This document shows, in pieces, positions 9,688 to 35,480 of a stretch of 64,000 nucleotides of DNA (its first letter is position 1; every line of letters begins with the position of its first letter). The DNA comes from Pseudomonas chlororaphis subsp. piscium (lineage in GTDB: Bacteria; Pseudomonadota; Gammaproteobacteria; Pseudomonadales; Pseudomonadaceae): positions 1,364,001 to 1,428,000 of the forward strand of contig NZ_CP027707.1 of the NCBI RefSeq assembly GCF_003850345.1. The letters are read 5' to 3'. A model generated the notes under the pieces. It saw only the letters and a list, made by a program, of their open reading frames with translations. It had not been told where the DNA came from and did no database searches. The position numbers and the translations under genes were made by a program.

Positions 9688-9698
9688 GGAAAAGCACA

Positions 9699-9935: not shown

Positions 9936-9942
9936 GACCTCC

Positions 9943-9964: not shown

Positions 9965-10022
9965 GCCTGCACAAAGCCCCGCCGAGGGGCTTTGGCGCTT
10001 TTGTGTCTGGAGAAATTCGCAC

Positions 10023-10244: not shown

Positions 10245-10246
10245 CC

Positions 10247-11919: not shown

Positions 11920-11935
11920 CCCGCGACACTTCCCC

Positions 11936-12024: not shown

Positions 12025-12045
12025 CTTTTACATAGGAATTCATTC

Positions 12046-12779: not shown

Positions 12780-12785
12780 AGCGGG

Positions 12786-15581: not shown

Positions 15582-15590
15582 GGAGGGCAT

Positions 15591-16607: not shown

Positions 16608-16748
16608 TTGCCGGGCCTTGCTCGGCATCCTGTTCTCCCGCGTCCTTTTTTCTACGACTCCGTCCTGTTGCCCGGGCGCCCGTTGCCTGGGCGATCCGTT
16701 GTGGCCGCGCCTGATGGTTTCCCATTCACTCAGTTTTGGAGCTTCTTC
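16608..16748. other. Gap between the two tail clusters, no gene seen
   Basis: 141 bases with no convincing ORF, promoter or terminator. The long open frame that crosses it belongs to the next gene only from ATG 16749. Confidence 0.6.
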
Positions 16749-17333: not shown

Positions 17334-17512
17334 GCAACCGCATCACTGTGCTGCCGGCCGCGGGCCGCGCCGTGCCGGACCCCGAAGCCGGCGACCTGCT
17401 GCCCCTCGAAGGCCGTGAAGTCGACGACAACGCCTGGTGGCGCCGGCGTCTGGCCGATGGCGATATCACCCTCAAGTCTGCGAAGGCGGCCAAACCACAA
17501 GGAGCCAAATAA
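17330..17512 (+). CDS. DUF2635 small tail-cluster protein
   Basis: 60 aa. VLPAAGRAVPDPEAGDLLP and VDDNAWWRRRLADGDI are hallmarks of DUF2635, always beside the Mu-like sheath. Stop and sheath start overlap (TAATG). Role unknown, perhaps sheath-assembly. Confidence 0.85.
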   Translation: MSNRITVLPAAGRAVPDPEAGDLLPLEGREVDDNAWWRRRLADGDITLKSAKAAKPQGAK

Positions 17513-19008: not shown

Positions 19009-19037
19009 GCCGAGCCTCTTTCACTGCGCTTTTCCAG

Positions 19038-19064
19038 CCCGCCTCGCGCGGGCTCATTTTTTGG
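19038..19064 (+). terminator. Terminator-like hairpin between sheath and tube
   Basis: Stem AGCCCGC / GCGGGCT with loop CTCGC and, two bases on, TTTTTT. It sits inside the operon and could attenuate downstream genes. Confidence 0.7.
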
Positions 19065-19074
19065 GAGAAACACC

Positions 19075-19422
19075 ATGGGTCAACTGATTGCGGGCACCTG
19101 CTACGTCAAAGTGGACGGCGCTCAACTGACCATCAACGGCGGCTGCGAAGCACCGCTGATGTCCGTGAAACGGGAAACCATCGTGCCGGGTTTCTACAAG
19201 GAAACCGACATTGCCCCGTCCTTCAAGGTCACGGCGCTGCACACCCCGGACTTCCCGCTCAAGCAGCTGGTGGCCGGTTCCGACATGACCGTCACCTGCG
19301 AATTCAGCAACGGCAAGGTCTACGTCCTGGCCGGCGCCTACCTGGTGGAAGAGCCGGTTTCCAAGGGTGACGACGCGAGCATCGAACTGAAGTTCGAAGG
19401 CATCAAGGGGACCTGGCAATGA
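19075..19422 (+). CDS. Cluster 2 tail tube (Mu gpM-like)
   Basis: 115 aa, close to Mu gpM (118 aa). GTCYVKVDGAQLTINGGCEA opening and KVYVLAGAYLVEEP strand are family features. TTGGGAGAAA ribosome site. Overlaps the chaperone gene by 4 bases. Confidence 0.9.
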   Translation: MGQLIAGTCYVKVDGAQLTINGGCEAPLMSVKRETIVPGFYKETDIAPSFKVTALHTPDFPLKQLVAGSDMTVTCEFSNGKVYVLAGAYLVEEPVSKGDDASIELKFEGIKGTWQ

Positions 19423-19715
19423 GCGATAGCGTAAAGCTGCGTGTGGCCATCGAAGCCCACGGCGAACCGCTGACCGAACTGACCCTGCGCCGCCCGACGG
19501 TGCAGGAAGTGCGGGCGATCAAGGCGCTGCCGTACAAGATCGACAAGAGCGAAGAAGTCAGCCTCGACATGGACGTCGCGGCCAAGTACATCGCGGTCTG
19601 TGCCGGCATTCCTCCGTCCTCGGTCAACCAGCTGGACCTGGCTGACCTCAACGCCCTGAGCTGGGCGGTCGCGAGTTTTTTCATGAGTGCGGCATCGGAG
19701 CCATCAGCGACCTGA
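19419..19715 (+). CDS. Cluster 2 tail assembly chaperone (Mu gp41-like, short form)
   Basis: 98 aa, phage tail assembly chaperone E / Mu gp41 type (LRVAIEAHGEPLTELTLRRP, then ALSWAVASFF). Works with the frameshift product to load tape measure. A T TTT TTC heptamer (19676-19682) lies 11 codons before the stop. Confidence 0.87.
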   Translation: MSDSVKLRVAIEAHGEPLTELTLRRPTVQEVRAIKALPYKIDKSEEVSLDMDVAAKYIAVCAGIPPSSVNQLDLADLNALSWAVASFFMSAASEPSAT

Positions 19716-19846
19716 TCGCGGTTGCCTATGACCTGGCCTGGTTCTGGAAGGTTGACCCCGAACAGATGATGGCCAGGCCACTGGATGTGCTCCGGGAGTC
19801 CCTGGAGCACGCGCAACGGATCAATGCGATGCAGCAGGTGCAGTGA
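19419..19846 (+). CDS. Cluster 2 chaperone -1 frameshift product (gp41-gp42 type)
   Basis: Slip at T_TTT_TTC (19676-19682) enters a frame running to TGA 19844-19846, adding 54 codons (HECGIGAISDLIAVAYDLAW then FWKVDPEQMMARPLDVL). This extension matches the Mu gp42-type C-terminus and has no start codon of its own. Its stop overlaps the tape-measure ATG (TGATG), coupling translation. Known for Mu-like phages; here supported by heptamer and frame. Confidence 0.88.
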
Positions 19847-21798: not shown

Positions 21799-23023
21799 TC
21801 GTTTGTTGCCGGCGTCGTTTCGTGGCGTCGGGTTCTGGGTCGACCAGGCGAAAACCCCGGTCGGCCACAAGGGCCAGTTGCACGAGTACCCGCAGCGTGA
21901 CCTGCCGTTCTACGAGAGCCTGGGACGGCAGGCGCGGACCCACGACCTGACGGCGTTCATCGTCGGCGCCGATTGCCTGGAGCAGCGCGACAAGCTGCTC
22001 AAGGCGCTGGAGGAGGGCAGTGGTGAGCTGGTGCACCCGTGGCTGGGGCGCCTGCAGGTCAAGGTCGGCGAATGCGAGATGACCCAGAGCCGTCAGGACG
22101 GCGGCCTGGTGACTTTCACCCTGAAGTTCTACCCCGACCAGCCGTTGCAGTTCCCCAGCGCCACGGTCAACACCCGCCAGCTGTTGCTGGTGTCGGCCGA
22201 CAGCCTTATCGGCTCGGCAGTGCGCCGCTTCGAGGAGGCCATGACCCTGGTCAAGGCCGCGCGCATCGGCATCGCCGATCTGCGCAACAGCCTCAAGGAG
22301 GTCTACCAGACCATCGAGCAGGAGCTCAAGCCGCTGATCGACACCTACCGTGATCTCAACCTGCTGGTGCGGGCGATCAAGGACTTGCCCAAGGAAGTGA
22401 GCGCCGAGTTCAAGGGCTTGCTGGGGGACATCAAGGACCTCAAGGACTATGCGCGCAACGGTTATCGCGGCGTGCTGGCCAACGTCTCGCAGCAGGTCGA
22501 GGCGGTGAAGAAGATCGACACGCCGAAACTCACCACCGGCAAGGACACCACCGCCGCGGCGCAAGCCATGGCGGACCTGGTGCAGGACGCCGTGCTGGTG
22601 CGGATCGCCCAGGCCGTGGCGTCGCTGCCGGTGGCGACCCCGGCGGTCAAGCTCAGCGGCACGCCGTCGCTGGCCAAGCAGGCGATCCAGCCGGTGACCC
22701 GTGCGGAAGTGCCGGTGGCCGATGAGGTGCTGGCGCTGCGCAACTCGATCAACGAGGCGATCTGGCAGGCGGCGGAAAAAGCCGACGCCCTGCATTACGA
22801 GGTGCTCAACGGCCTGCGCCAGCTGGTCTACGGCCACCTCACCGCGGTGGCTTCGTCCGGCGTGCGGCTGGTGGTCAAGAACCCGATGCAGAGCCTGCCG
22901 ACGGTGGTGCTCGCCTATCGGCTGTTTGGCGATGCCACCCGGGCGGCCGAAGTCCAGCAGCGCAACGGCGTGGCCCATCCCGGGTTCCTGCCGCCGACCA
23001 ACGTCAAAGTGGCGGGGGAGTGA
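21785..23023 (+). CDS. Mu gpN-like tail/baseplate protein
   Basis: 412 aa, DNA circularisation protein N family; in Mu-like tails gpN is a baseplate component despite the name. SWRDRLLPASFRGVGFWVDQ opening and HEYPQRDLPFYESLGR are family signatures. Overlaps the tape measure by 14 bases; GGAGG at 21776-21780 is its ribosome site. Confidence 0.9.
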   Translation: MSWRDRLLPASFRGVGFWVDQAKTPVGHKGQLHEYPQRDLPFYESLGRQARTHDLTAFIVGADCLEQRDKLLKALEEGSGELVHPWLGRLQVKVGECEMTQSRQDGGLVTFTLKFYPDQPLQFPSATVNTRQLLLVSADSLIGSAVRRFEEAMTLVKAARIGIADLRNSLKEVYQTIEQELKPLIDTYRDLNLLVRAIKDLPKEVSAEFKGLLGDIKDLKDYARNGYRGVLANVSQQVEAVKKIDTPKLTTGKDTTAAAQAMADLVQDAVLVRIAQAVASLPVATPAVKLSGTPSLAKQAIQPVTRAEVPVADEVLALRNSINEAIWQAAEKADALHYEVLNGLRQLVYGHLTAVASSGVRLVVKNPMQSLPTVVLAYRLFGDATRAAEVQQRNGVAHPGFLPPTNVKVAGE

Positions 23024-23026
23024 GCC

Positions 23027-24067
23027 ATGAGCAACTTCGATAACCGGGTGCTGTTGACGGTGGACGGCCAGGATTACGGCGGCTGGAAAAGCGTCGAAAT
23101 CAGCGCCGACCTGGAGCGCCAGTTTCGCACCTTCAAGCTCGACGTGACCTGGCAATGGCCGGGGCAGACCCTGGATCAGCGCATCCGTCCCGGCGCCAAG
23201 TGCCAGGTGCGCATCGGTGCCGACCTGTTGCTCAGCGGCCATGTGTTCAAGGCGCCGATCAGCTATGACGGTCGGCAGATCGGCCTGAGCATCGAGGGCA
23301 GTTCCCTGACCCAGGACCTGGTGGATTGCGCGGCGATCAACCAGCCCGGCCAATGGCGCGAACAGAGCCTGCTGAAAATCGTCCAGGCCCTGGCCGCGTC
23401 CTATGGCGTCGGGGTGGTCAGCGAGATCGCCGAAACCACGCGGCTGAGCAGCCACAGCATCGTGCCCGGGGAAACCGTGTTCCAGTCCATCGACCGTCTG
23501 CTGACGTTGTTCCGGGTGTTCTCCACCGACGACGCCGAAGGCCGGGTGCTGTTGGCCCGGCCGGGCAGCGGCGGGCGTGCGGTGGATGTGCTGGAACTGG
23601 GCAAGAATATCCTCTCGGCCAGCGCGCCGATGGACTTCAGCCAGGTGTTTTCCGAATACCGGGTGATCGGCCAGCACAAGGGCAACGACCAGAAAAGCGG
23701 CGCCGCGGTCAGCGAAGTGTCGGGCGTGGCCAGCGACAGCACGGCCAAGCGCAAGCGGGTCACGGTGATCAACGAGCCGGCGCAGTTGACCCAGGAGCTG
23801 GCCCAGCAACGGGCCGACTGGGAAAGCGCCATTCGCACCGGCAAGGCCCTGACCAGCACCTACAAGGTGCAGGGCTGGCGCCAGAGCAACGGTGACCTGT
23901 GGCGCCACAACACCCTGGTGCGGGTGATCGACCCGGTGCTGGGTTTCGACCAGGACCTGCTGATTTCCAAGGTCACCTATTCGCTCTCCGAGCAGGGCTC
24001 GATCACCACCCTGCAGGTGGCGCCGCCCCATACCTTCGACGCCAGCCCCGTGCCACCCAAAACCTGA
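23027..24067 (+). CDS. Mu gpP-like tail hub protein
   Basis: 346 aa, the gp27-like hub of Mu-type baseplates. NRVLLTVDGQDYGGWKSVEI opening and STYKVQGWRQSNGDLWRHN near residue 275 fit the family. Starts 3 bases after gpN. Confidence 0.9.
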   Translation: MSNFDNRVLLTVDGQDYGGWKSVEISADLERQFRTFKLDVTWQWPGQTLDQRIRPGAKCQVRIGADLLLSGHVFKAPISYDGRQIGLSIEGSSLTQDLVDCAAINQPGQWREQSLLKIVQALAASYGVGVVSEIAETTRLSSHSIVPGETVFQSIDRLLTLFRVFSTDDAEGRVLLARPGSGGRAVDVLELGKNILSASAPMDFSQVFSEYRVIGQHKGNDQKSGAAVSEVSGVASDSTAKRKRVTVINEPAQLTQELAQQRADWESAIRTGKALTSTYKVQGWRQSNGDLWRHNTLVRVIDPVLGFDQDLLISKVTYSLSEQGSITTLQVAPPHTFDASPVPPKT

Positions 24068-24078
24068 TGCCGCCCTAT

Positions 24079-24099
24079 CTGCAGGAGTCGCTCCTGCAG
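24079..24099. repeat. Perfect hairpin between gpP and gp45
   Basis: CTGCAGGAG-TCG-CTCCTGCAG, 9-bp perfect stem, in the 64-base gap. No T-run follows, so it is REP-like or an mRNA-processing or stability element and not a terminator. Confidence 0.6.
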
Positions 24100-24131
24100 A
24101 AAGCGCAGGCTTCGCCGCCAAGGACATTTCC

Positions 24132-24641
24132 ATGAGCCTACTGACACGCCTGTTGGCGCGCGGCACCGTCGTGCTCGCCAACTCGGCCAACAAACTGCAA
24201 TCGCTGCAAATGCGCCTGACCGCCGGCGAAGTGAACGACGACATGGAGCACTTCGAGCCCTACGGCTTCACCAGCAACCCGCTGGCCGGCGCCGAAGGCA
24301 TCGCCACCTTTCTGGGCGGCGACCGCTCCCATGCCGTCGTGCTGGTGGTCGCCGATCGCCGCTTCCGCCTCAAGGCCCTGGCCCCCGGCGAAGTGGCGAT
24401 CTACACCGACGAAGGCGACAAGATTCATTTCAAGCGCGGGCGAATCATCGACATCGAGACCGCCACCCTCAATATCCGCGCCAGCAGCGCGGTGCACATC
24501 GACACCCCGACCCTGACCCAGACCGGCAAGATCGTCTCCCAGGGCGATCAGGTCGCTGGCGGCATCAGCCAGATCAAGCACGTGCATGGCGGCGTGCAGT
24601 CGGGTAGCGGGCAGACCGGCGCGCCGGCGGGAGGCCAATGA
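24132..24641 (+). CDS. Mu gp45-like baseplate spike
   Basis: 169 aa. Membrane-piercing spike of Mu-type tails. OB-fold (residues 25-95, LQMRLTAGEVNDDMEHFEPY...FRLKALAPGEVAIYTDEGD), then a beta-helix (IDIETATLNIRASSAVHIDT). The C-terminal HVH motif (KHVHGGVQ, about residue 153) is the iron-binding HxH tip of such spikes. Overlaps gp46 by 4 bases. Confidence 0.92.
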   Translation: MSLLTRLLARGTVVLANSANKLQSLQMRLTAGEVNDDMEHFEPYGFTSNPLAGAEGIATFLGGDRSHAVVLVVADRRFRLKALAPGEVAIYTDEGDKIHFKRGRIIDIETATLNIRASSAVHIDTPTLTQTGKIVSQGDQVAGGISQIKHVHGGVQSGSGQTGAPAGGQ

Positions 24642-25039
24642 TGTTTATCAGCCAAGACCTGCACCGCGCACTGACCCGTTCCGTACTGATCAGCCTGTTC
24701 ACCTGGCGCCGCGCGGCGGACGACGACCCGCTGGACGACGAGGAGCGCTTCGGCTGGTGGGGCGACAGTTTTCCCACCGTGGCCGACGACTGCATCGGCT
24801 CGCGGCTGTGGCTGCTGCGTCGGGTCAAGCTCACCCGCCAGACCCAGCTCGACGCCGAGTTCTATGCCCGCGAAGCCCTGCAATGGCTGATCGACGATGG
24901 CCATTGCAGCGCGGTCGAGATCATCAGCGAACGTCTCGACGACCAGCGCCTGAACCTGCGCACGACGCTGGTCCTGGCCAACGGTGAACGCCTGGACATC
25001 AACCCCGATAACAGTTGGCAGGTGACCTATGCCCTTTGA
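24638..25039 (+). CDS. Mu gp46-like baseplate protein (gp25-like)
   Basis: 133 aa, phage gp46 family (W-like wedge protein). FGWWGDSFPTVADDCIGSRL and QTQLDAEFYAREALQWLIDD are the family blocks. Overlaps both neighbours (4 and 11 bases). Confidence 0.9.
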   Translation: MMFISQDLHRALTRSVLISLFTWRRAADDDPLDDEERFGWWGDSFPTVADDCIGSRLWLLRRVKLTRQTQLDAEFYAREALQWLIDDGHCSAVEIISERLDDQRLNLRTTLVLANGERLDINPDNSWQVTYAL

Positions 25040-26069
25040 TACCCCTTCGCTGCCGGTGCTGATCAAGCGCACCCAAAGCGACCTGGCCAGCGATGCGCTG
25101 CGCCAGTCCGATGCGCAAGTGCTGGCCCGCACCCTCGGTGGCGCCGCCTATGGCCTCTACGGTTACCTGGACTGGATCGCCGATCAGATCCTGCCGGACA
25201 AGGCCGATGAGTCGACCCTGGAGCGCATCGCCGCGCTGCGTCTCAACCAGCCGCGCAAGGCCGCCCAGGCGGCCAGCGGTTCGGTGAGCTTCAGCGCCGC
25301 CGCAGGCGCGGTGCTGGACGTCGATACCCTGCTGCAGGCCAGTGACGGCCGCACCTACAAAGTCACCGCCGCCCGCACCACCAGCGCCGGCAACAACAGC
25401 ACCACCGTCCAGGCCCTCGACGCCGGCACCCTGGGCAATGCCGAGGCCGGCCTGGAGCTGATCCCGGTGCAACCGATCCAGGGCATCGGCAACAGCTTCA
25501 CCGTGCTCGCCCCCGGCCTGAGCGGCGGCGTCGCCGCGGAAAGCCTGGAATCGCTGCGCGCGCGGGTGATTCGCTCCTACCGCATTATCCCTCACGGCGG
25601 CTCGGCCCAGGACTATGAAACCTGGGCGCTGGAGTGCCCGGGGATTACCCGCGCCTGGTGCCGTGGCAGCTACCTGGGGCCGGGCACCGTGGGGCTGTTC
25701 GTGATGCGCGACGACGATGCGCAACCTATCCCGAATGCCGAGCAACTGGCGGAGGTAAAGGCCTACATCGAACCGCTGCGCCCGGTGACGGCCGAATTGC
25801 ATGTGCTGGCGCCGCAGCAGTCGCCCGTGACCTACAGCCTGCGGCTGTCGCCGGACACCAGCGCGGTACGCGCGGCGGTCGAGGCCCAGTTGCGCGATCT
25901 GCACAACCGCGAGGCCGGCCTGGGCGACACCTTGCTGATCAGCCATATCCGCGAGGCCATCAGCAGTGCCGCCGGCGAGAACGATCACCGGCTCAGCGCA
26001 CCGGCCGCGGATGTCCCCGCCGCCAGTAACCAGTTGCTGACGTTCGGAGGTTGCGTATGGCTGGAGTAA
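25029..26069 (+). CDS. Mu gp47-like baseplate J protein
   Basis: 346 aa, Baseplate_J. The SLPVLIKRTQSDLASDALRQ opening and VSFSAAAGAVLDVDTLLQAS near residue 82 are family features. A piece of this gene (about 25237-25294, encoding IAALRLNQPRKAAQAASGSV) recurs as a relic at 28172-28242. Confidence 0.92.
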   Translation: MPFDTPSLPVLIKRTQSDLASDALRQSDAQVLARTLGGAAYGLYGYLDWIADQILPDKADESTLERIAALRLNQPRKAAQAASGSVSFSAAAGAVLDVDTLLQASDGRTYKVTAARTTSAGNNSTTVQALDAGTLGNAEAGLELIPVQPIQGIGNSFTVLAPGLSGGVAAESLESLRARVIRSYRIIPHGGSAQDYETWALECPGITRAWCRGSYLGPGTVGLFVMRDDDAQPIPNAEQLAEVKAYIEPLRPVTAELHVLAPQQSPVTYSLRLSPDTSAVRAAVEAQLRDLHNREAGLGDTLLISHIREAISSAAGENDHRLSAPAADVPAASNQLLTFGGCVWLE

Positions 26070-26656
26070 GAACCGCCGCGCAGTACCAGAGCCAGCTGCG
26101 CAGCCTGCTGCCCAGCGGCCCGGCCTGGGACCCGGAGCGGGTGCCGGAACTCGAGGAGGTGCTCGAAGGCATCTCCCAGGAACTGGCCCGCCTCGACGCC
26201 CGCGCCGCCGACCTGCTCAACGAAATGGACCCGGCGGGCGCCAGCGAGCTGGTACCGGATTGGGAGCGGGTGATGAACCTGCCCGATCCCTGCCTGGGTG
26301 CGACCCCGCTGTTCGACGACCGCCGCCTGGCCGTGCGCCGGCGGCTGCTGGCCGTCGGCAGCCAGGCGCTCGCCTACTACGTCGAGATCGCCCGCAGCCA
26401 GGGTTATCCGAACGCCACCATCACCGAGCACGAAGCCCCCCGCATGGGTCGCGCACGGTTTGGTGAAGCGCATTTCGGCACCTGGCAGGCGCAATTCATG
26501 TGGACGCTCAATACCGGTGGGCGACTGCTCCTGGGCCGGCGTTTCAACGCCAGCTACTGGGGCGAACGCTTCGGCATGAACCCGGGCTCGGCCCTGGAGT
26601 GCCAGATCCACCGCAGTGCTCCGGCCCATACGCGGGTGCACATCAATTATGACTAG
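26057..26656 (+). CDS. Mu gp48-like tail protein (DUF2313)
   Basis: 199 aa, YmfQ/DUF2313, the tail protein I equivalent that links baseplate to fibres. ATG 26057 is chosen: GGAGG lies 7 bases upstream, and TTG 26051 is only the extreme open frame. YYVEIARSQGYPNATITEHE and WTLNTGG are characteristic. Its 3' third is duplicated in degraded form before the second fibre gene. Confidence 0.9.
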   Translation: MAGVRTAAQYQSQLRSLLPSGPAWDPERVPELEEVLEGISQELARLDARAADLLNEMDPAGASELVPDWERVMNLPDPCLGATPLFDDRRLAVRRRLLAVGSQALAYYVEIARSQGYPNATITEHEAPRMGRARFGEAHFGTWQAQFMWTLNTGGRLLLGRRFNASYWGERFGMNPGSALECQIHRSAPAHTRVHINYD

Positions 26657-26667
26657 GGGATAGACCG

Positions 26668-27522
26668 ATGGATTATCCGAAGAGTGTGCCCAGTGCGGGG
26701 TTGGTCAATGGCAGGTTCGTCGATGAGAACCCGCTGACCGGTACGCCGGGATCGCTGATTCCGGCGGACTGGGGCAACGGGGTGACCCAGGAACTGCTGG
26801 CCGTGATCACGGCGGCTGACCTGACGCCCAGCGAGGCGAACCTGACGCAACTGCTGAGCGCGATCCGCAGCATCAGCCGCAAGAGCGCGGGGCTCGGCAT
26901 TCAGCGCTTCACCGCCAATGGCAGCTTCACCGTGCCGGAGGGTGTGACGAAGATCTGGCTCAGTGGGTGTGCGGGTGGGGGTGGCGGCGGCGCCTGCCCG
27001 GGAGGCACGAGTGCGACGTCTTCCGGTGGCGGTGGAGGCGGTGCCGGGCAGCCGGTTATCCGCTTTCCTGTCACCGTGACGCCGGGGCAGGTCATTCCCG
27101 TGGTGATCGGGGCGGCCGGGGTGGGTGGCAATGGCGCGGTATTGGCGACCAGTGGGGGAAATACATTGGTCGGTACAGCCGGCTCCCTGCTGTCGCTGTC
27201 TGGCGGGAACGGAGCTGCCCCTGGGATCAATCTCTCCGGCTATGTCCCTGGTGCTCCGGGCGGACCGGGTTTTCCTGCGGGAGGTGATGCCACGGATGTT
27301 TCACCCAACACTGTCGCCGGCATTGGTGGTCCGGGGGCAAGTGGTCCGTATGGTGCGGGTGGGGGCATCTCCAGATCCGGCACAACTTCCGGGTACGCGG
27401 GCAAGCCCGCCTACGGCTATGGCGCGGGTGGTAGCGGCGCGGGTGGCTATTACATCGCGGGTGCCGGTCTTGCCCAGCCAGGTGGCAATGGGGCACCCGG
27501 CTTCATGCTGATCGAGTGGTGA
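26668..27522 (+). CDS. Tail fibre 1, glycine-rich tip
   Basis: 284 aa. Residues 1-66 are the shared attachment module (MDYPKSVPSAGLVNGRFVDE, then PGSLIPADWGNGVTQELL). The remaining 200 residues are extremely Gly-rich (GGGGG runs, GAGGSGAGGYY) and end in GFMLIEW, like fibres whose tips form packed polyglycine-type helices. First of three fibre/chaperone cassettes. Confidence 0.85.
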   Translation: MDYPKSVPSAGLVNGRFVDENPLTGTPGSLIPADWGNGVTQELLAVITAADLTPSEANLTQLLSAIRSISRKSAGLGIQRFTANGSFTVPEGVTKIWLSGCAGGGGGGACPGGTSATSSGGGGGGAGQPVIRFPVTVTPGQVIPVVIGAAGVGGNGAVLATSGGNTLVGTAGSLLSLSGGNGAAPGINLSGYVPGAPGGPGFPAGGDATDVSPNTVAGIGGPGASGPYGAGGGISRSGTTSGYAGKPAYGYGAGGSGAGGYYIAGAGLAQPGGNGAPGFMLIEW

Positions 27523-27526
27523 AAAC

Positions 27527-28168
27527 ATGAGCAAACAAATTCTTTATTGCGTGACATCGGGAATGGTCATCGATTGGCAGGACCTCGATCAGTTTGCCTA
27601 TGCCGCGCCTGCTCCGGCCATGAAGGTGCTGCCGGTCACTGCCGAGCAATGGAAGCACAAAGACGCGCTGCATTTCGTGCTGGATGGCGAGCTGACTCGG
27701 GTCGATGTCCCTCCACCCTCTGCCGCTCACCACTGGGACGGTAGCCAGTGGTCGTTGGACTCCCTGAAGGCCGCGGCAATCGCCGAACAGGAGATGGAGC
27801 AACTTTGCCTGCGAGTGGACGCGGAGGCTGACACCGCCCGGCAGGTGATCGGCGGTGACCCGCTGCGTGCCATGGAGTATGCCCAGGCCGCCAGCGACGC
27901 CCAGGCATTCAAGGAGGCCGGGTACCCGAAAAAGGCGGTGCCCCTCGCGGTAAGCGCCTGGGTGGTGAAAGGTCGTACCGCCAAGGATGCGGCCGACCAG
28001 ATTCTCGACAAGGCAGCCGAGCTCAACAGCAAGCTGCTCACACTTCGCACGCTGCGGTTGCAGGCAAAAGAGCGCATCCGGGCTCAGGCCGGCAAGGGCA
28101 AGCAGGAGGCTGCGAAAGACGTCTGCGAGGCGGCGATTGAGGCGATTCGCAAGGTTGCCAGCGACTGA
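27527..28168 (+). CDS. Fibre 1 partner / tail-assembly protein
   Basis: 213 aa, starts 4 bases after fibre 1. N-terminal 70 residues are beta-rich; the middle and end are a long charged helical domain (VDAEADTARQVIGGDPLRAM then KAVPLAVSAWVVKGRTAKDA) seen in Pseudomonas tail proteins. It holds the chaperone position but its sequence differs from the chaperones of cassettes 2 and 3, so the chaperone role is inferred. Confidence 0.65.
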   Translation: MSKQILYCVTSGMVIDWQDLDQFAYAAPAPAMKVLPVTAEQWKHKDALHFVLDGELTRVDVPPPSAAHHWDGSQWSLDSLKAAAIAEQEMEQLCLRVDAEADTARQVIGGDPLRAMEYAQAASDAQAFKEAGYPKKAVPLAVSAWVVKGRTAKDAADQILDKAAELNSKLLTLRTLRLQAKERIRAQAGKGKQEAAKDVCEAAIEAIRKVASD

Positions 28169-28171
28169 TCT

Positions 28172-28540
28172 GGATCGCCGTGTTGCGTTTCAAGCAGCCG
28201 TCCAAGACCACCCAGGCGGCCAGCGGTTCTGTGAGTTTCAGTTGGCGCGGCGTCTGCTCGCCATAGGCAATCAGAGCACGGCGTACTTCGTCGAAATTGC
28301 CCGCAGCCTGGGTTATCCGAGCGCTTCTGTTATCGGGCTCCATGCGCCTCGCATGGGGCGCTCGATCATTTCGGTACCTGGGGCGCAATTCACTTGCCCC
28401 CTCAACGCCGGCGGATAGCTGTCGCCGGGCCGCCGTTTCGGCCCCAGCGCTTCGTGACAGGCACTGGCAGTGCTCTGCAATACCTGATTCAACACAGTGC
28501 TCCGGCCCATGGGCTGGTGAACATCAATCATGACTAGAGA
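28172..28540 (+). pseudogene. Mosaic relic of gp47 (J) and gp48 before fibre 2
   Basis: 28172-28242 matches an internal piece of the gp47 gene (IAVLRFKQPSKTTQAASGSVSF vs IAALRLNQPRKAAQAASGSVSF). It joins directly to a piece of gp48 (NQSTAYFVEIARSLGYPSAS, then HAPRMGR) that continues with stops and indels to the gp48 end (CAGTGCTCCGGCCCAT). No intact frame. It shows that a block J-gp48-fibre-chaperone was duplicated and then internally deleted. Confidence 0.85.
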
Positions 28541-28548
28541 ATAGAGCA

Positions 28549-30099
28549 ATGGATTATCCAAAGAGCGTGCCCGGTGTCGGGCTGCTGAATGGGAAGTTTG
28601 TCGACGAAAATCCGGTGGCAGGTACCCCGGGATCATTGATTCCCGCTATCTGGGGCAATGCGGTTACCCAGGAGATCCTGAACGTCATCAAATCGGCCGG
28701 TCTGGTCCCCGACGAGGCATCGACCACTCAGTTGCTACAGGCGATCCAGAGTTTCGCTGCCCGAGATTTCAAGGACTCCGTGCGTGTTGCCACCACGGGC
28801 TCCGTTGCCTTGAGCGGTCTGCAAGCCATCGATGGCGTGCAGCTCACGGTCGCCGATCGTGTGCTGGTCAAGGACCAGGCTAATGCGGCGCAGAACGGGC
28901 TTTATATCGTTTCGGCCGATTCCTGGTCACGAGCACCGGATGCGGCGCTGGATTATCAGGTGACCTCTAACTTTATTGTCGGGACGGATGAAGGTCAGGT
29001 TAACAAGTCGCGTATCTGGCAAATGACCACTCCTGGGCCGATTACCGTCGGTGCCACGCCTTTGGTTTTCGAACTGATGGCCGGGGCCACCGGTGTGGCT
29101 GCCGGGGAGTATCGGAAAGTAGCGGTCAATGCACGCGGCCAAGTCACGTCGGGATCGAATCCGACCACCCTGGACGGTTATGCGATTACTGACGCTTACA
29201 GCAAAACGGCGGCGAACAATGCCTTCGTCAAGCAAGGTGGGATCGGTACCCAATTAACCAACGCTGTTTATATCGGTTGGGATGGGCAGAACGTTCTTAT
29301 CCAGGTCGATGCCACCAACTTTGGCAACCTGTGGTGTTCGAGAAACTTCGACCCTGCCAAAAAGGCCGATGTTTCCGAGGTGTACAGCAAAACAGCGGCC
29401 AATGCGTTGCTGGATGCCAAGATCAGTTCCGATGCTTGCTCTATTGCCGGTTTTGCCAGCGGTAACTCGGCAGCTCCTTATATGCGCAATAAAAATAATA
29501 ACGAGTATGTGGGGCTGGCCAGGGCTGCGACTACTTTGGGTGGGTATGGCATTGCCGACGCATACACAGCGGCTAAAGTTGATTCGCTTTTAGGTGAGCG
29601 CGTTCTAAGGGATGCGATTACCTATGCCGGCTTTGCAAGTAACGATCCGAACTACCCTTACTTCAGAAGAGCTTCCGATAATGGCGTTTATCATCTTCAG
29701 CCACGGCTTGGTTTTACTCCGGTACGCCAGGGTGGGGGGAATGGTCAGACTTCTAATGTGGTAATGCTGGGCTGGTCCGACGGCTCGGGTCTCAAGGCGC
29801 AAGTCGATGCTACCGATCTTGGGGCTATCTGGACCGACCATATTGGTAACTGGAAGGCGGTAGCTGCGCAGGCCACGGCCGGTACGGGCGCGGTTGGCTC
29901 CTATGCGCTCCTGCTTCTTGGCGGCGGTGGTGGTATAGGGCCTAGCTCTCTCGTGGCGGGTGTGAATTGCAGGTACGCCGCTTCGGATGGCAATGACTGG
30001 GGCGGCGCACCTGCTGGCACTTGGCGAATTATGGGTGGGGTCAGAAATACAGACGGCGCGAGCTCCGATTCTACAACTCTATGCTTGAGGGTTTCTTGA
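28549..30099 (+). CDS. Tail fibre 2, long repeat fibre
   Basis: 516 aa. The same N-terminal module (MDYPKSVPGVGLLNGKFVDE...PGSLIPAIWGNAVTQEIL), then a shaft with internal repeats: LDGYAITDAYSKTAANNAF / LGGYGIADAYTAAKVDSLL, and paired VYIGWDGQNVLIQVDATNFG / VMLGWSDGSGLKAQVDATDL. A Gly-rich LLLLGGGGGIG turn precedes a beta tip ending TLCLRVS. Lower GC than flanking tail genes in its second half suggests exchange of the distal part. Confidence 0.87.
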   Translation: MDYPKSVPGVGLLNGKFVDENPVAGTPGSLIPAIWGNAVTQEILNVIKSAGLVPDEASTTQLLQAIQSFAARDFKDSVRVATTGSVALSGLQAIDGVQLTVADRVLVKDQANAAQNGLYIVSADSWSRAPDAALDYQVTSNFIVGTDEGQVNKSRIWQMTTPGPITVGATPLVFELMAGATGVAAGEYRKVAVNARGQVTSGSNPTTLDGYAITDAYSKTAANNAFVKQGGIGTQLTNAVYIGWDGQNVLIQVDATNFGNLWCSRNFDPAKKADVSEVYSKTAANALLDAKISSDACSIAGFASGNSAAPYMRNKNNNEYVGLARAATTLGGYGIADAYTAAKVDSLLGERVLRDAITYAGFASNDPNYPYFRRASDNGVYHLQPRLGFTPVRQGGGNGQTSNVVMLGWSDGSGLKAQVDATDLGAIWTDHIGNWKAVAAQATAGTGAVGSYALLLLGGGGGIGPSSLVAGVNCRYAASDGNDWGGAPAGTWRIMGGVRNTDGASSDSTTLCLRVS

Positions 30100-30100
30100 G

Positions 30101-30571
30101 ATGATGAAAGTACTAAGTGCTCACACACCTTGCTGGAATGACGTGGCACATACAACGCTTAACCTGTATGTGACATTTGAAGATACCAAGGACTCTCTTG
30201 GCGAAATCATATTTACCGCCTCTCCAAATGACCCGGAATCTCATGGTCGGGACTTATTTGATCGTGCAGTGGCTTTGGAATTTGGTGATATCGCCGAGCC
30301 GGGGGTGGATATGATTAAGGGCAATATGCTGCTACAACGCGCCGAGCTGACGGCTGTCGCCAACTCCGTGATCGAGAAATTGCAGGTCGACGTGAATATC
30401 TTGCAAGACTCCGTGGAACTTGAAATTGCCACGGATAAGGAAATCGCAGCCTTGGCCACCAAGAAGGTCTCTCTGAGTGCCTGGAAAAAGTACCGGGTGC
30501 TGCTGTCGCGGGTGCAGGAGCAAGAAGGGTTTCCAACGGTTGTCGAGTGGCCCGAGGCTCCCGGTGAGTAA
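30101..30571 (+). CDS. Fibre 2 assembly chaperone
   Basis: 156 aa (ATG 30101 or 30104). C-terminus KKVSLSAWKKYRVLLSRVQE is typical of Caudo_TAP tail-fibre assembly proteins; the N-terminal half is variable and would match its own fibre. Starts 1 base after fibre 2. AT-richer than the core tail genes. Confidence 0.75.
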   Translation: MMKVLSAHTPCWNDVAHTTLNLYVTFEDTKDSLGEIIFTASPNDPESHGRDLFDRAVALEFGDIAEPGVDMIKGNMLLQRAELTAVANSVIEKLQVDVNILQDSVELEIATDKEIAALATKKVSLSAWKKYRVLLSRVQEQEGFPTVVEWPEAPGE

Positions 30572-30965
30572 GGTCAGCCTGCAGGCGTTTGCGTTGGAGG
30601 ACTTTCATCCATGCTGATTACTGAACCCGCTTTGCGAATGCCATATTGATGAATAGCTGATTAATCGAAATACAACGCATCCCGAGGCTCAGCTTTATGA
30701 GTTTCTGAATTGTATTCAGTCTTTACGTGACTGGCCCCACTCCCAGTTTTTCCAAATCCAGAAAGTCGTCCAGCGCCACCCGAGTGGTTGCCGGGATATT
30801 AGTATTTTTATTTGAATGATTTCTGGACTTTCTACCCAGATGTACTGGTTGATTCGTTCTTGTCCGATGGTATTGCTGGGTTGAAGCATGTTTCATGCGT
30901 ACCAGTTCTGGCGGAGGGGAGTTGTCTGGGTAATATCAGTCATATTCGAGGCAGAAGGTTAAATA
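30572..30965 (+). pseudogene. AT-rich gap with a frameshifted coding relic
   Basis: No intact gene in 394 bases. An open stretch 30657-30815 (EAQLYEFLNCIQSLRDWPHS, then QFFQIQKVV) continues one frame over from 30803 (NDFWTFYPDVLVDSFLSDGI, then AGLKHVSC). One indel in a T-run would join them, giving about 100 codons. Family not recognised; it is not similar to gp47/gp48. Confidence 0.4.
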
Positions 30966-32048
30966 ATGGATTATCCGAATAGTGTTCCAAGTGTTGGCTT
31001 GGTAGATGGCCGATTTATCGATGAAAATGCCATTTCTGGTGTTCCAGGATCATTGATTCCTGCAGCATGGGGCAATGGTGTAACTCAAGAGATACTGTCG
31101 GTAGTAAAAAGCGCAGGAATAGCACCGAATGAGAACGATAACGCTCAGTTGCTGAAGGCATTGCAAGTTATTGTTGGTAAAGCAAGCCCGATGCTTTCAG
31201 TCGTGAAAAATATTGCAGTTTCCAGATCGCTGGGGTCTGACGAACTGGGTTTGTTACTCATCAATGGTGCGGCAGATACGGTGTCGATAACGCTTCCTCC
31301 CAGCAACGCAGGTTTAGGTGTGCGTGACGTTGTTGTGCGTCGCGTGGACAACAGCGGCAACCGCTTGGTCGTGCAATGTTCGGGGACTGACAACATCAAG
31401 TTCCACACTCATTTGCGTTCTGCCGGTTATCCCTTCCTGGTGCTTATGGGGGCTGGTGACTGGTGGCATTTACGCAGTGATGGGAGCGGTAGTTGGTGGC
31501 CGGTCGGACGATTTGATGGCACCGCTCTGGGACGACCTGTATTTGAAACTACGGTGGTTCTGGCCCCTGGTGGGTATGGTGCCTTGAATGGATCAACCCT
31601 GAAGCGCACGGAATGGCCCTGGTTGTGGGATCACGCCCAGCAGTCTGGAATGTTACGTCCTGAAAGTGATCGCGCTGGGGCTTGGTCTCCCGGGGATGGG
31701 GCTACTACTTTCCGGACACCCGAGGCGCGTGGTGAGTTTCTGCGGGTCTGGTCCGAGGACAATACAGTCGATTCCGGTCGTACTCCAGGTTCATGGCAGG
31801 CGGGGTCCCTGGTGCATGGGGACAATGGCATCGGAAATAACATCATATTTGCCTCCGACATGCTTAACCAGAGGAAGCAACTGGGCTTCGATATTGGCTA
31901 TTTGGCTGCATATCCGGGATGTACCGTTAAATACATCTGGCCGGATCAGGCGGGTGTAACACAACTACCGGATTTGGAGTTGATGAATCACAGTGGCGTT
32001 GCTCGCCCTCGAAATATTGCCTATCCGGGGCGAATCAAGCTTATTTGA
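30966..32048 (+). CDS. Tail fibre 3, collar-domain fibre
   Basis: 360 aa. Shared module at residues 1-66 (MDYPNSVPSVGLVDGRFIDE...PGSLIPAAWGNGVTQEIL). The distal half has the phage tail-collar signature (TTFRTPEARGEFLRVWSEDN, TVDSGRTPGSWQ). Its codon use and GC are clearly lower than cluster 2 core genes, as for imported fibre DNA. Third cassette. Confidence 0.88.
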   Translation: MDYPNSVPSVGLVDGRFIDENAISGVPGSLIPAAWGNGVTQEILSVVKSAGIAPNENDNAQLLKALQVIVGKASPMLSVVKNIAVSRSLGSDELGLLLINGAADTVSITLPPSNAGLGVRDVVVRRVDNSGNRLVVQCSGTDNIKFHTHLRSAGYPFLVLMGAGDWWHLRSDGSGSWWPVGRFDGTALGRPVFETTVVLAPGGYGALNGSTLKRTEWPWLWDHAQQSGMLRPESDRAGAWSPGDGATTFRTPEARGEFLRVWSEDNTVDSGRTPGSWQAGSLVHGDNGIGNNIIFASDMLNQRKQLGFDIGYLAAYPGCTVKYIWPDQAGVTQLPDLELMNHSGVARPRNIAYPGRIKLI

Positions 32049-32055
32049 GATATTT

Positions 32056-32658
32056 ATGGCTAATTATTTAATCAATCAAGTACAAGCCTTAGTGGGGCCG
32101 GTGACGTTTCCATCGATTCCCGGTCTCGGAGTGCAGTTACCGAGTAACGCGGTGGAGCTGCCTCATGAGCTTCCGGAGCCTGAAAGTGGTTGCGTATGGG
32201 CGTGGATAGATAATGCTCCAATACAGTTGCCTGATCGGCGCGGCGCGATCTACCACATGCAAACGGGCACATTGACGCAATGGACAGAACTCGGGGAGTT
32301 ACCTGTTGGTTTTACCGACAAGCCTTGGCCGGGTAAGCACTTTATATGGGTAGAGGGTGACTGGAAGCTGGATGAAGTGGCGAAATCTGCTGCTGAGAGC
32401 AAAAACGCCCAGGCGGAGCGCGATAGTCGTTTACGTGAAGCGTCGTTACGCATAGCCCCACTTCAATATGCCCTTGAGCTGGGAGAGGCCTCGTCCGAGG
32501 AACAATCCGCCTTGCTGGAGTGGAAACGCTATTGCGTTGCCTTGAACCGTATCGAGCAGCAGCCGGGCTATCCGTTTGAAGTTGAGTGGCCAGTGCTCAA
32601 CCTTGAGGCCCCCCGCGGCCCGCTGAAAACACTGCGCTCCTTCTTCCGTAGTAAATGA
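32056..32658 (+). CDS. Fibre 3 assembly chaperone
   Basis: 200 aa, Caudo_TAP type. PGKHFIWVEGDWKLDEVAKS in the centre, then a helical region, and WKRYCVALNRIEQQPGYPFE near the end, the family signature. ATG 32056 chosen (MANYLINQVQ), 7 bases after fibre 3. The C-terminal motif is shared with the cassette 2 chaperone while the N-terminus is not. Confidence 0.8.
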   Translation: MANYLINQVQALVGPVTFPSIPGLGVQLPSNAVELPHELPEPESGCVWAWIDNAPIQLPDRRGAIYHMQTGTLTQWTELGELPVGFTDKPWPGKHFIWVEGDWKLDEVAKSAAESKNAQAERDSRLREASLRIAPLQYALELGEASSEEQSALLEWKRYCVALNRIEQQPGYPFEVEWPVLNLEAPRGPLKTLRSFFRSK

Positions 32659-32679
32659 ACCCAAGTCAGGGAGAGACTA

Positions 32680-33243
32680 ATGTCTGTGACCGAGGGACAA
32701 CTCCTCAAGATCATGCCCAACGCCCGCTCCCAAGCGGGCGTTTTTGTTTCTGCGCTTAACACCGCCATGGCGCACCGCTATATCAACACACCCAAGCGCA
32801 TGGCCGCGTTCCTCGCGCAGGTTGGCCATGAGTCGGGGCAGTTGCGTTATGTGCGGGAGCTGGGCAATGACCAGTACCTGAGCAAATACGACACCGGCAG
32901 CCTGGCGGCCCGTCTGGGCAATACCCCGGAGGCCGATGGCGACGGCCAGAAATACCGGGGCCGGGGTCTGATCCAGGTCACCGGTCGCAACAACTACCGG
33001 CAATGCAGCCTCGGCCTGTTCGGCGACGAGCGTTTGCTGGCGTTGCCGCAATTGCTGGAACAGCCGCAATGGGCCGCCGAGTCTGCCGCCTGGTTCTGGC
33101 AGCAGAACGGCCTTAACGAGCTGGCCGACCGCGACCAGTTCAACAGCATCACCCGGCGCATCAACGGCGGCTTGAACGGGCTGGAGGATCGTCTGCAGCT
33201 CTGGGCGCGGGCGCGGGAGGTGTTATGCCAGCCTTCGGCCTGA
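32680..33243 (+). CDS. GH19 endolysin
   Basis: 187 aa, glycoside hydrolase family 19 (chitinase-like lysozyme) as in pyocin lysis cassettes. Catalytic Glu in AQVGHESGQL (about residue 50) and the YRGRGLIQVTGRNNY block at about residue 88. No signal peptide; needs the holin at 2091. The CAGGGAGA ribosome site fixes the start. Codons 14-23 contain a perfect terminator-like hairpin (see 32719-32748). Overlaps the Rz gene by 19 bases. Confidence 0.92.
   Translation: MSVTEGQLLKIMPNARSQAGVFVSALNTAMAHRYINTPKRMAAFLAQVGHESGQLRYVRELGNDQYLSKYDTGSLAARLGNTPEADGDGQKYRGRGLIQVTGRNNYRQCSLGLFGDERLLALPQLLEQPQWAAESAAWFWQQNGLNELADRDQFNSITRRINGGLNGLEDRLQLWARAREVLCQPSA
32719..32748 (+). terminator. Terminator-like hairpin inside the endolysin gene
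   Basis: AACGCCCGCT / AGCGGGCGTT, a perfect 10-bp stem with loop CCCA, followed by TTTGTTT. It lies fully inside coding sequence (codons for NARSQAGVFV). Structure seen; activity not tested. Confidence 0.65.
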
Positions 33244-33761
33244 TGCCTCTGTCTTACCGGGCAATGGCTGTCGTCGTGTTGCTGGCCGTGGTGGCCGGCG
33301 TTGCCGGGATACTGGCCTGGCAGGTTCAGGATTGGCGCTTTGGTCGGCAGATGGCGGAGCAGGCCAGGCTGCACGATGACGCGCTGAATCAGCTGAACCT
33401 GGCGGCCGCTGCCCGGCAGCGGGGCGAGCAGGACAAACGCCTGGCCCTGGAGCGACAGCTACAAGCCAGCGATCAAACCCATTACCGAGCCCTGAGCGAT
33501 GCACAACGTGATCAAGGTCGCCTGCGCGACCGTCTTGCCACTGCTGATCTGCGCCTGTCAGTCCTCCTCGACGCCCATGACAGCGCCGCCGGCTGCACAG
33601 TGCCTGCCACCCCCGCCACCGGCGGCCTGGTTCATGGAGCCCCGCGAGCCCGACTTGACCCGGCGCATGCTCAACGAATTGTCGCCATCACCGATGCCGG
33701 CGACCAGGGACTGATCGCCCTGCAGGCGTGTCAGGCCTATGTCAGGGCGCTGGGCCGCTAA
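33225..33761 (+). CDS. Rz-like inner-membrane spanin
   Basis: 178 aa. A single N-terminal membrane anchor (residues 14-31, AVVVLLAVVAGVAGILAW), then a long periplasmic helical/coiled-coil domain (RQRGEQDKRLALERQLQA). With Rz1 it fuses inner and outer membranes in the last step of lysis. ATG 33225 has a GGGAGG ribosome site; ATG 33243 (TGATG junction with the endolysin stop) is an alternative. An Rz1 frame is embedded. Confidence 0.85.
   Translation: MPAFGLMPLSYRAMAVVVLLAVVAGVAGILAWQVQDWRFGRQMAEQARLHDDALNQLNLAAAARQRGEQDKRLALERQLQASDQTHYRALSDAQRDQGRLRDRLATADLRLSVLLDAHDSAAGCTVPATPATGGLVHGAPRARLDPAHAQRIVAITDAGDQGLIALQACQAYVRALGR
33499..33714 (+). CDS. Rz1-like outer-membrane lipoprotein spanin, embedded in Rz
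   Basis: 71 aa in the +1 frame wholly inside Rz. Basic N-terminus, hydrophobic stretch and lipobox ICAC (Cys20), then a proline-rich mature part (QCLPPPPPAAWF), the classic Rz1 pattern. The embedded arrangement matches lambda Rz/Rz1. Confidence 0.85.
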   Translation: MHNVIKVACATVLPLLICACQSSSTPMTAPPAAQCLPPPPPAAWFMEPREPDLTRRMLNELSPSPMPATRD

Positions 33762-33843
33762 ACATTTTGATCCGCTCCCTGCCTTGCAAGCGCGTATCGC
33801 TCGTGTACGGTAAGACCTCCGCCAACCCGATCAGGAGAGGACC

Positions 33844-34344
33844 GTGAACGAAATCACCCAGCTTGCCGCTGAACTTGGCAGACGCTTGCAGGTTCTGAAT
33901 ACCCACGTCACCACCGCCGAGTCCTGCACCGGTGGCGGGATTGCCGAGGCCATCACCCGCATTCCCGGGAGTTCGGCCTGGTTCGAGGCGGGTTATGTGA
34001 CCTACTCCAATCGGCAGAAGACCCAGCAACTGGGGGTGCCGGAAGTACTTTTCGCTTCCGTCGGCGCGGTCAGCCGCGAGGTGGTCGAGGCGATGGTGCG
34101 GGGCGCGCAGGGCAAAAGCAGGGCGCGTTATGCCGTGGCGGTCAGCGGGGTGGCCGGCCCGGATGGCGGTTCGCCGCAGAAGCCGGTGGGCACCGTATGG
34201 CTGGCCTGGGGCGTCGGAGAGGCGGTAACGACCGAGTGCCGACACTTCGCCGGGAATCGGGACGAAGTCCGCCGACAAACGGTGAAGGCCGCGCTAGAGG
34301 GCTTGCTGCAACATGCCGCGGCAGAAATCTCAAAACAGGGGTAG
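33844..34344 (+). CDS. cinA: CinA C-terminal-domain nicotinamide-nucleotide amidase
   Basis: 166 aa, the stand-alone CinA C-terminal domain (PncC). Hydrolyses NMN to NaMN in pyridine-nucleotide salvage. [20 protein letters not shown] (residues 21-40) with catalytic Ser and the [20 protein letters not shown] block are signatures. GTG start with AGGAGAGG upstream. Marks the right border of the tailocin island, as in other fluorescent pseudomonads. Confidence 0.93.
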
Positions 34345-34371
34345 GCGATCCACGAACGCTGTGGAATAATA

Positions 34372-34387
34372 CTGGCTACTTATACAG
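34372..34387 (+). promoter_or_regulatory. LexA (SOS) box of recA
   Basis: CTGGCTACTTATACAG fits CTG-N10-CAG, 40 bases before the recA ATG. Makes recA damage-inducible. Confidence 0.88.
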
Positions 34388-34427
34388 GTGTTGGCCGTCA
34401 GGCCTTATTGATTACGTGAGGACTTTA

Positions 34428-35480
34428 ATGGACGACAACAAGAAGAAAGCCTTGGCTGCGGCCCTGGGTCAGATCGAACGTCAATTCGGCAAGGGTGCCG
34501 TAATGCGTATGGGCGATCACGATCGCCAGGCGATCCCGGCCATTTCCACTGGCTCTCTGGGTCTGGACATCGCACTCGGCATCGGTGGTCTGCCAAAAGG
34601 CCGTATTGTTGAAATCTACGGTCCGGAATCGTCCGGTAAAACCACCCTGACCCTGTCGGTGATTGCCCAGGCACAGAAGATGGGCGCCACTTGCGCCTTC
34701 GTCGACGCCGAGCACGCACTGGACCCGGAATACGCCGGCAAACTGGGGGTCAACGTCGACGACCTGCTGGTTTCCCAGCCGGATACCGGCGAACAGGCGC
34801 TGGAAATCACCGACATGCTGGTGCGCTCCAATGCCATCGACGTGATCGTGATCGACTCCGTGGCGGCACTGGTACCCAAGGCCGAGATCGAAGGCGAGAT
34901 GGGCGACATGCACGTGGGCCTGCAGGCTCGCCTGATGTCCCAGGCGCTGCGCAAGATCACCGGTAACATCAAGAACGCCAACTGCCTGGTGATCTTCATC
35001 AACCAGATCCGTATGAAAATCGGCGTGATGTTCGGCAGCCCGGAAACCACCACCGGTGGTAACGCGCTGAAGTTCTACGCTTCGGTTCGTCTGGATATCC
35101 GTCGTACTGGCGCGGTGAAGGAAGGTGACGAAGTCGTCGGTAGCGAAACCCGGGTCAAGATCGTCAAGAACAAGGTGGCTCCACCCTTCCGTCAGGCTGA
35201 ATTCCAGATCCTGTACGGCAAGGGTATCTACCTGAACGGCGAGATCATCGATCTGGGCGTGCTGCACGGTTTCCTCGAGAAATCCGGTGCCTGGTACAGC
35301 TACCAGGGCAACAAGATCGGTCAGGGCAAGGCCAACTCGGCCAAGTTCCTGCAGGACAATCCGGAAATCGGTAATGCCCTCGAGAAGCAGATTCGCGACA
35401 AGCTGCTGGCTCCGAGCGGAGATACCAAGGCTCTGCCCGTCAACGAGACCATCGATGACATGGCCGACGCGGATATCTGA
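34428..35480 (+). CDS. recA: Recombinase RecA
   Basis: 350 aa, full length. ATP-dependent strand exchange and co-protease for LexA and S24 repressors, including probably the tailocin repressor at the left edge. Walker [13 protein letters not shown] (about residue 60), Walker [14 protein letters not shown]2 loop [20 protein letters not shown]. Start ATG 34428 (MDDNKKKAL), ribosome site GTGAGGAC; the longer open frame crosses the LexA box and is not used. Confidence 0.99.

Follow-up and report, generated by a model that had tools for sequence, protein, structure and literature searches.

Three tandem tail fibre cassettes on a Mu/SfV-like R-type tailocin of Pseudomonas chlororaphis and the order of their relatives

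The tail fibre genes of a tailocin from Pseudomonas chlororaphis subsp. piscium are considered here within a window, by which we mean the whole analysed stretch of 64,000 nucleotides (contig NZ_CP027707.1, positions 1,364,001 to 1,428,000 of the forward strand, counted below from its first letter). The Pseudomonas genome hosting the window is a single contig of 7,065,155 bases and carries two contractile tail clusters between mutS and cinA/recA, a P2-like one first and a Mu/SfV-like one second. Directly behind the gp48-like gene of the second cluster stand three intact, co-directional open reading frames (ORFs) for tail fibres, each followed by a chaperone-like gene. Taken as a whole, the evidence makes it probable that these genes form a multi-fibre array of a Mu/SfV-like R-type tailocin that is arranged in ordered slots, works without a DNA switch and broadens the range of targets.

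Fibre cassettes and their shared module

A preliminary description made from the sequence alone had placed three tandem fibre cassettes with a common attachment module on one tailocin. The cassettes and the module were confirmed; the locus holds two tailocins, and all cassettes stand behind the second. The N-terminal module spans about 68 residues, with copies 2 and 3 being 71 and 62% identical to copy 1. When copy 1 was searched against the whole genome, the other two were retrieved with expectation values (E) of 2.4e-28 and 3.1e-25 and no fourth copy appeared at E ≤ 0.1; because of these values and the lack of any other genomic copy, the likeness of the three modules lies far beyond chance. 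Their DNA is 77% (module 2) and 71% (module 3) identical to that of module 1 over 137 nucleotides. Across 13 representatives, 25 of the 68 module columns are invariant and there is no sign of separate docking types. Past the module, the three fibre proteins cannot be aligned convincingly.

Fibre 1 (26668-27522, plus strand, 284 residues; module 26668-26871) ends in a glycine-rich tip of family L (26872-27519) that matches Gly_rich_2 (PF21722, 2e-10), and it resembles the fibre of cyanophage Pam3 (1.4e-8), the only solved protein matched (two entries). Fibre 2 (28549-30099, plus strand, 516 residues; module 28549-28752) continues into a long shaft and tip of family M, in which residues 74-211 (28768-29181) are similar to the capsid-decoration protein 9nx3 (2.4e-8); a decoration-like stretch similar to this shaft also occurs elsewhere in the genome (G000:C1:3844081-3844395). 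Among the 25 listed of 63 matching phage records none covers 80% of the fibre 2 query, such that no phage donor emerged from these. Fibre 3 (30966-32048, plus strand, 360 residues; module 30966-31169) bears a collar-like tip of family A, with a sub-threshold match to Pfam Collar (17.8 bits at a cut-off of 24) and a strong one to the tail fibre family phrog_1858 (2.7e-53); its structure model has a mean predicted local distance difference test score (pLDDT) of 41.7 and is unusable. The consensus of 16 family-A fibres contains SHxHG near the C-terminus, where fibre 3 reads LVHGDNG (31809-31829) and thus seems to be short of one histidine of the motif. In agreement with the preliminary description all tips differ and a glycine-rich and a collar-like one are among them, while the proposed long repeat shaft holds only in part, since fibre 2 contains a single internal repeat of about 31 nucleotides (77% identity).

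A chaperone-like gene after each fibre had likewise been predicted and is present in all three cassettes. Cassette 2 ends with a tail fibre assembly chaperone gene (30101-30571, plus strand, 156 residues) matching both Caudo_TAP (37.6 bits) and Phage_tail_APC (33.2 bits) above cut-off, and cassette 3 with another (32056-32658, plus strand, 200 residues) that reaches 74.5 bits with Caudo_TAP, again above cut-off, in a scan from 31993; this earlier start position was corrected to 32056 from the sequence. The gene in cassette 1 (27527-28168, plus strand, 213 residues) matches phrog_8983 of unknown function (1.7e-69) and, weakly, phrog_8258 annotated as tail fiber assembly (3.2e-7), without any match in Pfam. 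Its structure model (mean pLDDT 80.7) comprises a beta-rich N-terminal part of low confidence followed by a helical C-terminal domain; fold comparison was uninformative either way (best Foldseek E 0.14, VIA-align retrieving helical bundles only). The Pam3 fibre has been described in a 3:3 complex with a chaperone whose N-terminal domain is a beta structure and whose C-terminal domain is helical (accessible part of PMC9608196).

All three fibre genes use one strand. We propose that each fibre would fold as a trimer with the help of its own downstream chaperone, and that the shared module would dock every fibre on the same gp48-like baseplate protein, a proposal that draws on the weak likeness of the module to Mu tail fibre protein S and on the match of the upstream gene to Mu gp48. 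Co-expression of the three would enable one producer strain to release particles that jointly recognise several target surfaces.

Order and exchange of cassettes among relatives

A profile of the module detected it in 123 of 398 Pseudomonas genomes. At least two copies occur in 62 of them; 61, 16, 14, 13, 18 and 1 genomes have one, two, three, four, five and the maximum of six copies, respectively, counts that may include copies outside the array, as the arrays of G002, G019 and G183 held one fewer. For the arrays themselves, 77 discovery loci were obtained by searching named genome contigs with fibre 2 and are thus no random sample. Seventy-four are complete on both sides and contain one to six module-bearing fibres in 22, 11, 13, 11, 15 and 2 cases.

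When tips were sorted into families by similarity, the families followed one another as D, A, B308 and, last, either B386 or E. The discovery set gave 114 pairs in this order and 2 that break it (78 arrays including the window, 38 of them informative). A held-out set was drawn from the 123 module-bearing genomes, mostly from those with at least three copies; 39 loci were taken, and 26 arrays were left after removal of 12 on discovery contigs and one identical array. All 75 pairs of the 21 informative held-out arrays were in order, and 10,000 shuffles never exceeded 56. Families C and F, each found in more than one slot, are outside the rule, family B was split by length after inspection of the data, and the pair B386/E was excluded as the two alternate. 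Given the shared ancestry of the strains, this conservation of order shows inheritance of position. The array of the window reads L-M-A, with fibre 1 in first place and fibre 3 in family A. In the genomes G034 and G053, a relative of fibre 2 comes immediately after gp48, as the first fibre with a module or the only one.

Comparison of nearly identical loci reveals what is exchanged. From IMG/VR the best 80 of 485 loci were taken and the first 13 were analysed by slot; their slot-1 modules are 99-100% and their gp48 97-99% identical to those of the window. Four of them are L-M-A-like, and nine are L-B-C with F (six) or E (three) in the fourth slot, giving five and nine arrays when the window is included. 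One of the L-M-A-like loci, L141, possesses a divergent second fibre of 455 residues that the family rule left unassigned. A second slot-1 allele, 76-77% identical to the first over the whole fibre, is combined with B-C-E in L133 and with M-A in L136 and L138, and the first allele is likewise found next to either block; recombination has therefore taken place between slot 1 and the remainder of the array. The loci L130 and L132 agree at 96.4% over 5.8 kb, a stretch that reaches 125 nucleotides into the slot-4 module; beyond this point they part, and the fibres of slot 4 are only 19% identical over the whole alignment. The window and L130, in turn, agree through chaperone gene 1 and again from about 30 nucleotides inside the endolysin gene. 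It follows from these breakpoints that the docking module and neighbouring genes can act as crossover sites. Close relatives thus differ, in the sequences compared, by replacement of single slots, with one crossover lying inside the module. According to the array model, cassettes would stay in position, and homologous recombination at the conserved module and adjoining genes would replace what a slot or block of slots contains. We lean towards a more general formulation, in which tailocins of the P. fluorescens group would be targeted in a combinatorial way, with up to six fixed, ordered slots behind gp48, a separate set of alternative tip alleles for each slot, exchange of these alleles slot by slot through recombination in module or flanks, and a killing range that amounts to a multi-locus haplotype instead of a single fibre allele.

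The junctions between cassettes add a historical aspect. Cassette 1 begins 11 nucleotides past gp48, and cassettes 2 and 3 follow spacers of about 380 and 394 nucleotides. The first spacer contains a decayed baseplate remnant (28174-28548, plus strand), in which 68 nucleotides of the baseplate J gene, 85% identical to 25227-25294, run into the 3' half of gp48, which is about 68-78% identical to 26339-26656 and contains stops in the gp48 frame. The same scar is present in L004 (Pseudomonas sp. NFIX28) and, partially, in L089 (genome G361). A separate gp48 remnant precedes the second fibre of L075 (L075:9825-10129), by its sequence a second instance of baseplate DNA that came in together with a cassette. 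Counting only junctions with at least 340 nucleotides of upstream DNA, remnants were detected at E<1e-7 in 4 of 222 non-first junctions (window, L004, L089, L075), the first three of which probably go back to one event; four further junctions gave E 0.57-0.95, and shuffled controls gave one match at E<1. Among close relatives, L136 and L141 have gp48 pieces before cassette 2, and L138 and L139 have none at the same threshold. From the J/gp48 remnant ahead of it we conclude that cassette 2 probably arrived with adjoining baseplate DNA, which would have decayed later. An origin from the G034/G053 lineage was considered and found no support: the last 130 nucleotides of the scar are 0.64-0.65 identical to the gp48 ends of these genomes, no closer than to the gp48 end of the window itself (0.67) or to the best-matching other one (0.70). 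The second spacer (30572-30965) has a sole match, 57 nucleotides to L089.

The preliminary description had also noted a fall in guanine-cytosine (GC) content towards cassette 3 and taken it for a mark of acquired tips. GC does fall, with minima in module 3 and the spacer before it (44.6 and 45.7%), while the cassette 3 tip has 54.3%. Low GC as a sign of acquired tips was thus dismissed, because whole cassettes are low and module 3 is lowest; with the minimum off the tip, acquired cassettes are at most indicated.

Switching, silent cassettes and particle composition

A first alternative to such an array is a recombinational switch, by which cassette 1 would swap tips with the other cassettes via the shared modules while the cells grow. 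Module DNA is 61-70% identical within this genome, a crossover inside a module has been seen between strains, and the review PMC12961389, as far as accessible, speaks of a tail fibre "switching" mechanism in P. chlororaphis. The kinship of the modules points the other way. In 198 modules from tip families of at least three members (C and F divided by position), the nearest module by DNA came from a different genome and the same tip family in 187 cases, from another family elsewhere in nine and from the same genome in two, which speaks against a switch, as does the kept tip order. As the preliminary description had stated, all cassettes lie on the same strand without inversion sites: between 25000 and 33800 the longest inverted pair has 28 nucleotides at 71% and the most complementary one 19 nucleotides at 84%. 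The resolvase family has one match genome-wide, below cut-off and 1.7 Mb away, and the nine genomic matches to the phage-integrase family all fall outside the window, about 122 kb to the left of it at the closest. The inverted repeats and serine invertase of a Mu-type invertible switch were hence not found here. With weak inverted pairs, module kinship, kept order and the lack of a resolvase-family match above cut-off in the genome and of an integrase-family match in the window all disfavouring it, we rejected switching by recombination or inversion and regard it as very improbable.

Slightly less remote, though still unlikely, is the idea that only cassette 1 is in use, cassettes 2 and 3 being a silent archive or decaying imports. 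It would fit with the position of cassette 1 immediately past gp48, the spacers before the others, one of them a pseudogene scar, and their lower GC. On the other hand, all genes compared between the window, L004 and L089 are intact, and the ratio of non-synonymous to synonymous substitution rates (dN/dS, NG86) against these two genomes is 0.07 and 0.16 for fibre 1, 0.12 and 0.09 for fibre 2 and 0.23 for fibre 3, for which the second comparison was saturated; chaperone genes range from 0.11 to 0.21 and two baseplate genes from 0.03 to 0.10. Because the ORFs are intact and dN/dS is well below 1, these sequences make silent cassettes unlikely. In 71 of the 74 discovery arrays that are complete on both sides, each module begins a frame of at least 150 residues (exceptions L008, L017 and L025), although such a frame may still be a truncated fibre, as is probably so in L023. 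Published mutants, as related in PMC13280938, tie activity to different fibre-chaperone pairs. Silence of two cassettes, the outcome that the preliminary description had named as contrary to its proposal, is therefore disfavoured by intact genes in three genomes and fibre dN/dS of 0.07-0.23. Promoter and terminator scans were uninformative (1 and 7 sites compared with 3.2 and 7.9 in shuffles).

Within the array reading, two sub-cases differ in the composition of the particle. A Mu particle bears six trimeric fibres, whose N-termini rest on a docking loop of gp48 (accessible part of PMC11915804); by analogy, the three fibres of the window may compete for six equal docking sites. If these were filled at random from a pool of three fibres, most particles would be hybrid: independent loading by three equal types leaves, by simple arithmetic, 0.4% uniform particles and a mean of two cognate fibres. 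We give this mixing close to an even chance, in view of the alike modules, which offer no separate docking types. It is at variance with PMC12090994 and PMC13280938, in which P. chlororaphis fibres are said to go into distinct particles or particles to carry one of several fibre types, the cited passages not containing the data; furthermore, according to a review it is the binding of several fibres that sets off contraction, and a hybrid averages two cognate ones. Uniform particles as in these accounts would not follow from random loading of six sites. They would result if each baseplate received one fibre type, e.g., through burst loading of fibre-chaperone complexes, yielding three sub-populations. 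This sorting is backed by the same secondary accounts of Dorosky 2018 and appears somewhat less probable to us, as we see nothing in the sequence that would sort the fibres. Under both sub-cases the range would be broadened rather than switched, as the preliminary description had suggested; PMC12090994 and PMC13280938 agree with this in the parts at hand, and the term used in PMC12961389 does not.

Several points weigh against the array reading itself, in addition to that term. It has been derived from sequence. The order is broken in two discovery arrays, L043 and L057, and the strains share ancestry, so that the 75 held-out pairs are not independent events. The dN/dS values are based on two pairwise comparisons, and the spacers before cassettes 2 and 3 could entail weak expression. 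The cassette 1 gene is a putative fibre chaperone, judging from weak profile match, position and the general build of its model. Finally, the module profile matches part of the start of Mu tail fibre protein S only weakly (8ju3 and 5yvq, E 0.007).

Locus layout and relation to known systems

The Mu/SfV-like tailocin body (16608-26656, plus strand) was identified by PHROG and Pfam matches and consists of genes for tail terminator (16608), sheath (17437), tube (19075), tail protein (19419), tape measure (19843), hub (21785 and 23027), baseplate wedge (24638), baseplate J (25029) and the gp48-like wedge (26051), the last of which matches Mu gp48 chain 9ki1_a (E 1.8e-7). A gp45-like gene (24132) is named by gene order in EU982300, its own match being a PHROG of unknown function. 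Gene 16608-17333 matches phrog_209, labelled portal protein, but reaches 95.9 bits with the Pfam tail terminator; the scan for head genes covered part of the cluster's ORFs. The second cluster has the sheath, tube, tape measure and baseplate genes, the lysis genes and the site between mutS and cinA/recA that are expected of a contractile R-type tailocin. The P2-like tailocin (5621-16607) encodes baseplate V (5621), J (6572) and I (7564), a fibre-like protein (8295), sheath (10247), tube FII (11413) and tape measure (12786). Its fibre-like gene (8295-8831, phrog_3737), behind which comes an ORF whose function is unknown (8935-9687, phrog_8748), lacks the module of the three cassettes in the whole-genome module search.

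To the right of the array, an endolysin/chitinase-like gene (32680-33243) and an Rz-like spanin gene (33225-33761), both on the plus strand and assigned by Pfam and PHROG, precede cinA (33844), recA (34422) and recX (35489), recognised by the Pfam families CinA, RecA and RecX; a MutS match lies about 2 kb left of the window (G000:C1:1361350-1361910). Just past the fibre array, inside the first codons of the endolysin gene, there is a strong terminator-like hairpin with a T run (32719-32742, plus strand). Its strict form occurs in 62 of 74 endolysin genes (window and relatives) compared with 1.5 expected by synonymous re-sampling, a control that leaves shared ancestry in, and a looser form in 72 of 73 relatives; it may mark the end of the fibre message or act as a damper on lysis. 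Two tRNA-Met genes with the same anticodon (54712-54788 and 54996-55072, minus strand) are 207 bases apart. Eight proteins had no match in NCBIfam, and nothing reached the Rfam gathering threshold in 24000-34500.

Fibres of phage Mu and carotovoricin Er have a constant N-terminus, and tail spikes of the Ackermannviridae have dedicated docking domains. Mu (S-U/U'-S') shares with the window alternative fibres with cognate assembly genes, and carotovoricin Er an alternative fibre end, as far as the sources at hand describe them; both invert DNA and express one set, whereas the window contains complete tandem genes on one strand and, unlike them, neither a good inverted repeat (25000-33800) nor an invertase (genome-wide resolvase scan). 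In the Ackermannviridae several receptor-binding proteins per phage broaden the range as well, with spikes that are described as a branched complex, whereas all three fibres of the window open with one common module; a separate docking domain was not found in Pfam or PHROG, which novel ones could escape.

Closer counterparts exist in Pseudomonas. Three fibre-type gene pairs at one locus have been known since 2009 (Mavrodi et al., PMC2647930): in prophage 01 of P. fluorescens Q8r1-96 (EU982300), which shares the mutS-cinA/recA site and the Mu/SfV-like tail, three pairs (Orf21-26), whose products carry the annotations fibre, collar, fibre assembly or hypothetical protein, lie between the gp48 homologue and lys, as in the window. 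The tips differ, and the accessible part of PMC2647930 describes collar and fibre proteins and no array rule. For P. chlororaphis, three fibre genes on a tailocin and broadened killing go back to Dorosky et al. 2018 (AEM 01230-18) as told in PMC12090994 and PMC13280938, and in these accounts activity has been assigned to fibre-chaperone pairs. The R-tailocin of strain 30-84 likewise combines two tailocins in one cluster, one lysis cassette, and three fibre genes with chaperones on one of them, just as three module-sharing fibre genes belong to one of two tailocins here; the likeness is one of description, and the accounts at hand do not mention slot order, slot exchange or scar. Arrays of four to six fibres, a fixed order or slot exchange in Pseudomonas were not encountered in the open-licence literature, to which the survey was confined, subscription papers being outside its scope, and according to a recent review, in the part at hand, tailocins mostly have a single fibre allele. 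Should arrays of two to six fibres prove common in Pseudomonas with this tailocin and be passed on as ordered slots, sensitivity and resistance of strains must be read as combinations, and the number of matching fibres needed for a particle to fire becomes testable by comparing natural strains. Multi-fibre tailocin clusters as such are already known; what the comparison with relatives suggests in addition is that the fibres occupy ordered slots whose contents are exchanged singly.

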